Assembly: GCF_947504145.1 (NCBI RefSeq) | Contig: NZ_CANNGQ010000007.1 | Coordinates: 1 to 64,000, forward strand | From: an uncultured Microbulbifer sp. | GTDB taxonomy: Bacteria; Pseudomonadota; Gammaproteobacteria; Pseudomonadales; Cellvibrionaceae | Direction: 5' to 3' | DNA length: 64,000 bases | Shown: positions 37,815 to 40,301 of the stretch, in pieces | Numbering within the stretch: the first letter of the stretch is position 1 | Layout: every line of letters starts with the position of its first letter | Translations under genes and position numbers: made by a program | Notes under the pieces: generated by a model | Database searches by the model: none | The model's input: only the letters and a program-made list of their open reading frames with translations | Told to the model about the DNA's origin: nothing

Positions 37815-37904
37815 GGGTAAGCCTTTGCCAGACACGCCGTGAACCCATCCATGGGGGCTCTTCTGCGAGGTCCCTCTCGCAGAAGGTCTGGCAAAGGCTT
37901 ACCC
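37815..37904. repeat. Palindromic repeat, copy 1 (between thiC and thiO)
   Basis: A 52-bp core (37834-37885) lies between 19-nt perfect inverted arms (37815-37833 and 37886-37904, gggtaagcctttgccagac and its complement). Weaker pairing extends the arms by another dozen bases. Inside the core are two hairpins, cccat-cc-atggg and a 10-bp stem cttctgcgag/ctcgcagaag with loop GTCCCT. The core recurs at 40238-40289 with different arms. It matches no mobile-element end I know. Confidence 0.93.
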
Positions 37905-37951
37905 GCATCGCAGCCTTCGCTTCTAACTTTGTGCTTTCTAACTCGTCGGAG

Positions 37952-39862
37952 TTATCCCTTGTGATAAATCTCGGCGCCAAGATCTTTGAACTTGATCGAC
38001 ATTTCTTCCATCCCTTTTTCTGCTTCCTGCTTCGCAGCGTACTCGCGTACGTCCTGGGTGATTTTCATCGAGCAGAATTTTGGGCCACACATGGAGCAGA
38101 AGTGCGCAACTTTGCCGGATTCTTTGGGCAGGGTTTCGTCGTGGTAGACGCGCGCGCGTTCCGGGTCGAGGCCGAGGTTGAATTGGTCTTCCCAGCGGAA
38201 CTCGAAACGGGCCTTGGAGAGGGCGTCGTCGCGTTTATAGGCGCGGGGGTGGCCTTTGGCGAGGTCGGCGGCGTGGGCGGCGATCTTGTAGGCCATGAGG
38301 CCTTCTTTTACGTCTTCTTTGTTGGGCAGGCCCAAATGTTCTTTGGGGGTTACGTAGCAGAGCATGGCACAGCCCATGCTGCCGATCATGGCGGCGCCGA
38401 TGCCGGAGGTGATGTGGTCGTAACCCGGGGCAATATCAGTAGTCAGTGGGCCAAGGGTATAGAAGGGAGCGCCGTGACAGTGCTCCAGTTGCTCGTCCAT
38501 GTTTTCTTTGATTTTGTGCATGGGAACGTGGCCAGGGCCTTCGATCATGGTCTGGACGTCGTGCTTCCAGGCGATTTCGGTGAGTTCGCCGAGGGTGTGC
38601 AGTTCGCCGAACTGGGCTTCGTCGTTGGCGTCGGCGATACAGCCGGGGCGCAAGCCGTCACCCAGTGAGAAGCTGACATCGTAGGCTTTAAGGATTTCAC
38701 AAATGTCCTCAAAGTGGGTGTAGAGGAAGTTTTCTTTGTGATGAGCGAGGCACCATTTGGCCATGATGGAGCCACCGCGGGAGACGATGCCGGTGACGCG
38801 TTTGGCGGTCATGGGGACATAGCGCAGCAGTACGCCGGCGTGAATGGTGAAGTAGTCAACGCCCTGCTCGGCCTGTTCTATCAGGGTATCGCGGAAGACT
38901 TCCCAGTTAAGGTCTTCGGCGACGCCATTCACTTTTTCCAGAGCCTGGTAAATCGGTACGGTGCCGATGGGGACCGGGCTATTGCGCAGAATCCATTCGC
39001 GGGTTTCATGGATGTTCTGGCCGGTAGAGAGGTCCATGACGGTGTCGCCGCCCCATTTGATGGACCATACCAGTTTTTCCACTTCTTCTTCGATGGAAGA
39101 AGTAATGGCAGAGTTGCCGATATTGGCGTTCACTTTACACAGGAAATTGCGGCCGATGATCATCGGTTCCAGCTCTGTGTGGTTGATGTTTGCGGGAATA
39201 ATCGCGCGGCCTTCGGCGACTTCGCGGCGCACGAATTCTGGCGTGATCTGTTCTGGAATGTAGATGCCTTCGCGGGCTTTTTGATAATCAGTATCCGAAA
39301 GCTGCTCGGCCAGTTGTGCGCGGCCCATATTTTCGCGGATGGCGATAAATTCCATCTCGGGGGTGATGATGCCCTGCCGGGCGTAGTGCATCTGGGAGAC
39401 GTTTTTACCGGGCTTGGCTTTGCGCGGGTACGGCAGGTTGTCGAAACGGATATGGTCGAGACCCTGGTCTGCCATGCGTTTCTGGCTGTAGGCGGCCTGG
39501 CGGGTGTCGAGGACTTCGGTATCGCCGCGGGCTTGGATCCAGCCCTGGCGCAGCTTGGGGAGGCCGTCGCGGACGTTCGGTTTGTAGTCGGGGTCGGAGT
39601 ATGGGCCGGCGGTGTCGTAAACCTGCAGGGGTTCATTGGGCTCAAAAACGGGGTTTTCTTCGTCGCCGCCGACAAGACTTTGGCCGAGGCAAATTTCACG
39701 AACGCCGACTTTTACGTCTTCGCGCTCTCCTTGCAAATAGACTTTGCGGGAGTTGGGGAATTGTTGTGCGGTGAGGTTGTCGAGAAATTCTTTGGCGCTT
39801 TCCTGCTGCTCGGCGCGGCTTTTTTTATTGGCTTTCTGTTGCGGTTCGGCGACTTGAGACAT
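37952..39862 (-). CDS. thiC: Phosphomethylpyrimidine synthase
   Basis: ThiC makes HMP-P, the pyrimidine half of thiamine, from AIR with a [4Fe-4S] cluster and radical SAM chemistry. The 636-aa length is typical. The N-terminal domain has [18 protein letters not shown]; the barrel has [44 protein letters not shown] and [17 protein letters not shown]. The C-terminal [12 protein letters not shown] supplies the cluster cysteines (CxxCxxxxC). Its AIR substrate is the product of PurM, also in this window. A TPP riboswitch lies in its leader. Confidence 0.98.
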
Positions 39863-39988
39863 GCTGACCCCTTGCGGTTTCCTGGCGTTATGATCCTTGG
39901 ATTGCTTGCCGGAATTGCAGTGGTGAGCAGATTTTGAGCGCGTGCATGAAAAATACAGCCACTCAAAATTTGAGGTGCGAATTCAGAT

Positions 39989-40070
39989 CTTGTTCCCTAC
40001 GCGGGGGTTACCCCGATCAGGTTCAACGGATCTCGCATCTGCGATCTCAGCCCTAAGGCGCTCCGACAAG
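39989..40070 (-). promoter_or_regulatory. TPP riboswitch in the thiC leader
   Basis: Reading the minus strand, CTTGT (40070-40066) pairs with ACAAG (39993-39989) as P1. Inside are GGGCTGAGATCGC, the conserved CTGAGA of the pyrimidine-sensing arm, and ACCTGATCGGGGTAACCCCC then GCGTAGGGAACAA of the other arm. This is a full THI-box aptamer. It ends 127 bp before the thiC ATG; binding of thiamine pyrophosphate is expected to lower thiC expression and possibly that of the rest of the operon. Position 40071-40225 shows no further gene. Confidence 0.96.
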
Positions 40071-40225
40071 TTGGGGCCGAGTATAGTGGTAGTTTGACCG
40101 AAAGGACAAGTCATTGGGGGATTGAGGTTTGGTTTTGCGCCCCGAATCGTATTTTGGCGTGTGGGAGATCTTGTGGTATTTGGCGCTTCGTAGCTAGTTT
40201 TGTGGCGGTGCCGCCACCGGAAAAC

Positions 40226-40301
40226 GGTTCGCAAGACACGCCGTGAACCCATCCATGGGGGCTCTTCCGCGAGGTCCCTCTCGCCGAAAGTCTTGCGAAC
40301 C
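40226..40301. repeat. Palindromic repeat, copy 2 (between the aldehyde dehydrogenase gene and the thiC leader)
   Basis: The 52-bp core (40238-40289) differs from copy 1 at 3 positions. Its arms, ggttcgcaagac (40226-40237) and complement (40290-40301), are perfectly inverted but unlike those of copy 1 apart from the innermost AGAC/GTCT. Weaker pairing continues outward on both sides (ggtg-cg and ggaaa blocks). The inner hairpin is less perfect than in copy 1. Confidence 0.93.

Follow-up and report, generated by a model that had tools for sequence, protein, structure and literature searches.

In the part of the survey that first presents TwoAYGGAY (Rfam RF01731), the motif is classed as probably an RNA and as not cis-regulatory, with occurrence in human gut, gammaproteobacteria and Clostridiales (PMC2864571). 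In the passages of Gardner and Eldai that concern it, TwoAYGGAY is proposed to bind CsrA (PMC4333381). Several papers naming TwoAYGGAY do not, in the passages considered, describe it as a dispersed palindromic repeat. RF01731 and CsrB are placed in a common Rfam clan, CL00106. The sites given for CsrA/RsmA are ANGGAN hexaloops; two sites 10-63 nt apart can be bridged, best when >18 nt apart, and the SELEX consensus is RUACARGGAUGU, as stated in the part of the review dealing with these sites (PMC7652899). REP elements are defined, where that source introduces them, as palindromes of 20-40 bp with a GTAG or CGTC tag (PMC3733652).

The element described here resembles each of these systems in some respects. 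Like the CsrB/RsmB-type sRNAs (RF00018), which belong with RF01731 to clan CL00106, it shows GGA in hairpin loops. However, CsrB is one gene of 369 nt with many GGA motifs, whereas the element has two GGA hairpins per copy, many dispersed copies and no evident promoter. Like REP elements (GTAG/CGTC) and the TIRs of TIRYT, as portrayed in the relevant part of Di Nocera 2013 (PMC3733652), it is dispersed, palindromic, located behind genes and often in inverted pairs; it differs from REP by its length of 112 nt, instead of 20-40 bp, and by its two hairpins.

Two palindromic elements beside thiC

The window (i.e., the whole stretch of 64 kb that was analysed) contains two palindromic elements of 112 bp beside thiC: copy 1 at 37804-37915 and copy 2 at 40208-40319. 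In both, the strand showing GGA in its loops (hereafter GGA strand) is the minus strand, which is also sense for the thi operon. Copy 1 is localized between thiC (37952-39862, minus strand, 636 aa) and a thiO-like gene (36686-37765, minus strand), and copy 2 between an aldehyde dehydrogenase gene (40351-41793, minus strand) and the TPP riboswitch of thiC (39977-40075, minus strand). This is the context given by the original prediction, in which the copies flank thiC with the aldehyde dehydrogenase gene beyond. The ORFs were called by length alone and the gene names come from reading of the translations; the riboswitch (RF00059, 76.6 bits) is the sole database match among the context features. 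A promoter-like site before the riboswitch (40080-40109, minus strand) is a consensus match only, with 9/12 consensus bases.

Each copy is composed of an outer stem enclosing two hairpins. In copy 1 the arms 37804-37833 and 37886-37915 pair at 27/30 positions; the conserved core with hairpin 1 occupies 37834-37860 (loop GGA at 37848-37850, minus strand) and hairpin 2 occupies 37861-37885 (loop GGA at 37871-37873, minus strand). In copy 2 the arms 40208-40237 and 40290-40319 pair at 24/30 positions, the conserved core with hairpin 1 lies at 40238-40264 (GGA at 40252-40254, minus strand) and hairpin 2 at 40265-40289 (GGA at 40275-40277, minus strand). The cores of the two copies are identical at 49/52 positions. 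The arms differ between the copies, yet each matches its own partner, which confirms the palindromes with a shared core and different paired arms that had been reported from the letters of the sequence. The perfect inner arm stretches (19 bp and 12 bp, one per copy) belong to that description and hold; the extent given there was too short, since the covariance model places the ends of the elements at 112 nt.

The RNA folding z-scores are −9.7 (plus strand) and −8.8 (minus strand) for copy 1, −4.9 and −4.6 for copy 2, and 0/200 shuffles fold as well. Covariance model R1 fits both copies end to end (positions 1-112 of 112), with 105.8 bits for copy 1, which is among the 50 sequences used to build the model, and 90.3 bits for copy 2 (E 1.2e-26 and 2.2e-22). 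With this model no third element is found in the window at E ≤ 1. Searching with a 25-nt core pattern, 3 mismatches being allowed, gives two hits in the window and none in 100 shuffles.

Distribution of the element

The core was searched in the whole source genome and in relatives, as had been advised with the original prediction. Further copies exist and their arms covary, so that the observation named there as refuting the prediction was not made; 220/243 distinct copies have a long outer stem, with a sequence that varies. The source genome contains 27 copies according to a 29-nt core pattern (up to 3 mismatches; none for the reversed control pattern) and 61 matches according to the covariance model. 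Within the genus, the core pattern yields 0-62 copies per genome, with 22/31 genomes having any, and the covariance model (E ≤ 0.001) yields at least one match in 38/40 genomes. The number per genome ranges with this model from none to at least about 95, counts near 95 being lower bounds since 95 candidates were scored per genome. The core pattern is found in 10/185 genomes of the class Gammaproteobacteria and in 6 genomes of a phylum sample of 100, the source genome being included in both cases, and in 0/75 genomes of that sample outside the class. Among named genomes, at least 118 stretches carry the core pattern; the 80 titles listed include Stenotrophomonas, Xanthomonas, Marinobacter, Microbulbifer, Rheinheimera, Arenimonas, Methylotuvimicrobium, Erwinia and Sodalis. 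From the likeness of its copies to the named Microbulbifer copies, the source genome is probably a Microbulbifer. The plasmid and phage collections gave no match to the element and the viral contigs one exact core match. The element family is thus dispersed in the genome and patchy through Gammaproteobacteria.

Several variants were observed. A second core type, GAGCTAGGCGCCCCCC instead of GCCGTGAA, alternates with the common type at orthologous sites (L222, L225, L118, L296, L295, L300). One of these loci, L222 of genome G025, is near-identical to the window left of copy 1 (thiC-thiO junction, 37730-37830), has a core type different from that of copy 1, and its thiC is only 88% identical; judged from the sequences, this stretch looks like a recent exchange. 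In L064, L075, L094 (all three from Methylotuvimicrobium buryatense) and L134, hairpin 2 is replaced by a longer sequence with further hairpins. CAACAG/CAACGG-type repeats precede, on the plus strand, the copies of several Stenotrophomonas loci (L028, L043, L046, L057 and others).

Relationship with TwoAYGGAY

At threshold, no Rfam family matches the window copies or the elements of 18 other loci. MicroRNA families gave matches that fall well short of their thresholds, in several cases on both strands; these were taken as chance matches to a long hairpin. In a permissive search RF01731 matches 2/8 loci, exactly on the element and on the GGA strand, with 31.7 and 29.8 bits (gathering score: 43 bits). 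It has no match on the window copies, up to E 10 for copy 1 (search of 161 bases) and up to E 5 for 37700-40400, and none in the source genome. In the reverse direction, covariance model R1 matches 4/21 RF01731 loci over its full length with 67.5-69.6 bits, two of them exceeding the RF01731 cut-off; the other 17/21 loci reach at most 33 bits or nothing. Homology between the two families is thus detectable.

The two families have in common (i) a weakly conserved external stem and two hairpins with N-GGA-Y loops, in the same order and on the same strand; (ii) several copies in some genomes, partly as close inverted pairs. RF01731 matches occur in 15/166 genomes of the class, up to at least 15 per genome, some in close inverted pairs; among the 21 loci checked, the arms are paired in most, and both orientations to the genes are seen. 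They differ in hairpin 1, which is short and bulged in the element, with a near-invariant core, and long in the RF01731 consensus. By its external stem and two NGGAY-loop hairpins the element resembles a member of RF01731, and by the gathering score it falls outside. The window palindromes are thus very probably copies of a dispersed structured element forming one superfamily with TwoAYGGAY, without being RF01731 members by score. The statement that no family of this design was known has to be withdrawn, since TwoAYGGAY is a relative.

Fold and covariation

The alignment comprises 50 sequences (window copy 1 plus 49 out of 106 GTDB copies 111-113 nt long). In these copies 89.1% of the cells are paired. 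This value falls to 38.8-44.1% when the partners are slid by 1-3 columns, a control that leans towards the fold because the elements themselves served to define the structure, and to 56.6% in shuffles. Double-changed cells number 706, vs. 226 in shuffles, which do not preserve relatedness. Changes on both sides are seen for 27/27 outer-stem pairs, 8/9 pairs of hairpin 2 and 2/6 pairs of hairpin 1. The core bulge and the junction are nearly invariant, and the arms have conserved positions and ends. Folding and covariation thus support the three-way-junction layout that had been drawn from the window alone.

In about 7/50 copies (L069, L072, L108 and others), G.A and A.G are opposed in two adjacent pairs of hairpin 2 on the GGA strand, in the manner of a tandem G.A; tandem GA is mentioned for TwoAYGGAY in the part of PMC4333381 on this motif.

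Strand bias of wobble pairs

Among the mismatches of the outer stem, 252 are G.U on the GGA strand vs. 35 on the other strand (220 copies). These counts leave out copies whose core has over 4 mismatches, copies at locus ends, copies with N, duplicates and copies with an outer-stem score below 9 (23/243), and the P values derived from them are not independent tests since copies within one genome are related. Taken singly, 141 copies favour the GGA strand and 11 the other. The ratio hardly follows the neighbouring genes: copies with a GGA strand sense to both neighbours give 71:9, those with a GGA strand antisense to both give 75:8. Hairpin 2 has the same bias (23:3). By groups assembled from genome titles, the values are 11:1 for Stenotrophomonas, 11:1 for Xanthomonas, 6:0 for Arenimonas, 9:2 for Cellvibrio-like genomes, 3:1 for Oceanisphaera/Zobellella and 3:2 for Marinobacter, i.e., no clear bias in the latter.

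Since the wobbles are biased to one strand whatever the direction of the neighbouring genes, it is the fold of one single strand that is kept. In integron attC sites, too, it is the structure of one strand rather than its sequence that is conserved. Selection for a folded shape, as put forward in the original prediction, is strongly supported by covariation, by the wobble bias and by pairing in place (see below), and can be assigned to a single strand.

GGA loops and proposed CsrA docking

GGA is found in the hairpin-2 loop of 116/120 distinct sequences when the GGA strand is considered and of 25 for the other strand. ANGGA is present in hairpin 2 of 80/120 and CANGGAYG of 60/120 distinct sequences. 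The distance between the two GGA has a median of 23 nt (range 14-31). The element thus has what is expected of a CsrA/RsmA-type target, i.e., GGA in a loop and two sites at bridging distance.

We tentatively favour, from the sequences, the reading that the folded GGA strand is an RNA docking site for a CsrA/RsmA dimer. On the GGA strand a long stem, free in sequence, ends at a three-way junction from which two hairpins with GGA loops emerge, and this strand would act as RNA. Its hairpins, hexaloop-like and spaced by about 23 nt, would dock one CsrA/RsmA dimer. The outer stem would merely hold the hairpins together, so that its sequence may drift while its pairing is kept, and the copies would come to sit behind genes in a REP-like manner. 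This reading draws support from the GGA loops and the distance between them, from the G.U preference and from the clan that RF01731 shares with CsrB. Against it stand: (i) the GGA strand, which is antisense to its neighbours in many copies (antisense to both 63 vs. sense 56), together with the fact that no promoter of its own stands out (114 copies, scan with general sigma-70 frequencies); (ii) the near-invariant core bulge and junction, beyond what CsrA would be expected to need; (iii) the limited shares of ANGGA and CANGGAYG given above; (iv) the window copies and the source genome, which have no RF01731 match; (v) a copy number from none to at least about 95 in one genus, which is odd for a regulator.

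In the relatives G021, G322, G001, G325 and G002, the site of copy 2 (aldehyde dehydrogenase-thiC junction) is taken by a sister subfamily whose core is different; in G018 only apparent outer ends remain at this junction. The sister subfamily contains GUACAGGGAUGU, which as a sequence fits the SELEX consensus RUACARGGAUGU.

The number of csrA matches varies in the genus: 11/48 genomes have 5-27 (G003, G004, G006, G009, G010, G014, G030, G326, G328, G331 and G333, with the maximum of 27 in G328) and most others one. Among the genomes present in both searches, 7/8 of those with at least 5 csrA matches have at most 12 element matches, the exception being G006 with 73; 5 of the remaining 32 genus genomes have at most 12. 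Most of the genomes compared are near each other by thiC, and the csrA surroundings are N in 2/4 loci checked, thus a missing csrA match is no proof of absence. That a high csrA number goes with few elements is to be taken as a lead only.

Genomic position and possible mobility

The plus-sense copies of the source genome have their core starting at a median of 66 nt after the upstream stop codon. Copies are rarely found between divergent genes (1/28 classified copies of the source genome, 18/190 in a wider set); the remainder of the wider set comprises 63 plus-sense, 56 minus-sense and 53 convergent copies. Close pairs are inverted in 13/19 cases (GTDB set), and the genes between or beside close copies, as far as checked, are unrelated to each other. 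An RNA device particular to thiC, for processing or attenuation, is consequently unsupported, since copies adjoin unrelated genes. An all-against-all comparison of 862 neighbouring ORFs gave nothing telling (largest cluster: 10 ORFs in 8 loci). No replication-strand bias is evident, by eye, in the places listed for G021 and G015.

The elements could instead be REP-like mobile elements that depend, for spreading or for being maintained, on one DNA strand folded in single-stranded form and recognised, via the two hairpins and the conserved bulge, by a putative enzyme, the CsrA likeness being coincidental. This is the main rival reading, which we hold to be somewhat less likely than CsrA docking. 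It explains orientation and patchiness better than CsrA docking does: the strand bias is independent of gene orientation, the high copy number is patchy, the copies lie behind genes in both orientations and rarely between divergent ones, inversion is seen in close pairs (13/19) as well as between orthologous copies (2/15), and the core bulge is near-invariant. However, no enzyme was found. Among Y1_Tnp (IS200/IS605-like) loci, 0/57 carry the core within about 1.5 kb, a Y1 match is missing in 3/12 genomes with the element, and the distribution of Y1 across the genus has no pattern fitting the element copy numbers. Moreover, the copies persist and stay paired in place, which selection at the time of transposition alone would not achieve, and the plasmid and phage collections contain no match.

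A REP of RAYT or TIR of TIRYT was rejected on the same 0/57 loci, and the palindrome of 20-40 bp with GTAG or CGTC tag does not correspond to an element of 112 nt with a different core. The 8 proteins examined among those encoded between or beside close copies include no transposase (7 match other families and 1 matches none).

Evolution in place

The copy behind thiC is present at the same place in 14/30 thiC loci. In these 14 genomes, its 20 inner pairs are Watson-Crick in 277/280 cells, and 10 of the 20 differ in type between genomes. For 15 orthologous copies of the source genome and G021, 327 pairs are unchanged, 71 have changed on both sides without loss of pairing, and 46 are changed on one side or unpaired; some of these 15 are possibly separate insertions because 2/15 are inverted between the two genomes. 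The outer arms can be retained through changes of hairpin 2 and of the core type. A miniature element copying its flanks into both arms, the alternative offered with the original prediction, is unsupported, given the conserved arm positions and ends and the arms that stay matched while evolving in place.

The arms could also be matched, with no selection for the fold, by arm-to-arm copying (quasi-palindrome correction at replication) and conversion between copies. Such an origin would agree with the few one-sided intermediates behind thiC (3/280 cells unpaired), with hairpin 2 changing as a block while the outer arms are almost unchanged (L004/L326) and with the two core types alternating at one site. 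However, copying treats the two strands alike; it can produce alone neither the 252:35 bias nor the near-invariant loops and junction. The wobble bias thus speaks against it as sole cause of pairing, and we consider it improbable.

That the selected function is a plain mRNA 3'-end hairpin (terminator or exonuclease shield), kept in whichever strand is transcribed, agrees with the position of copies close after stop codons (the median of 66 nt given above) and is very improbable, since the wobble bias speaks against it (copies with the other strand sense should favour that strand and the observed counts are 8 vs. 75) and no terminator-like site was called at either window copy.

Significance

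The analysis joins an Rfam motif of unexplained function with a dispersed gammaproteobacterial palindromic repeat, a link not found in the open-licence PubMed Central literature. The strand-biased wobble reveals the functional strand without expression data. As a speculation that is rather unlikely as a whole, the TwoAYGGAY superfamily might consist of self-spreading CsrA/RsmA docking elements, placed by dozens per genome behind genes of either orientation, each with the fold of one strand preserved, and together forming a distributed sponge or tuner for the Csr system; where csrA is amplified, lineages might mostly have lost them or never had them. With so many copies in a genome, CsrA binding, strand-specific transcription and mobility can be tested directly.
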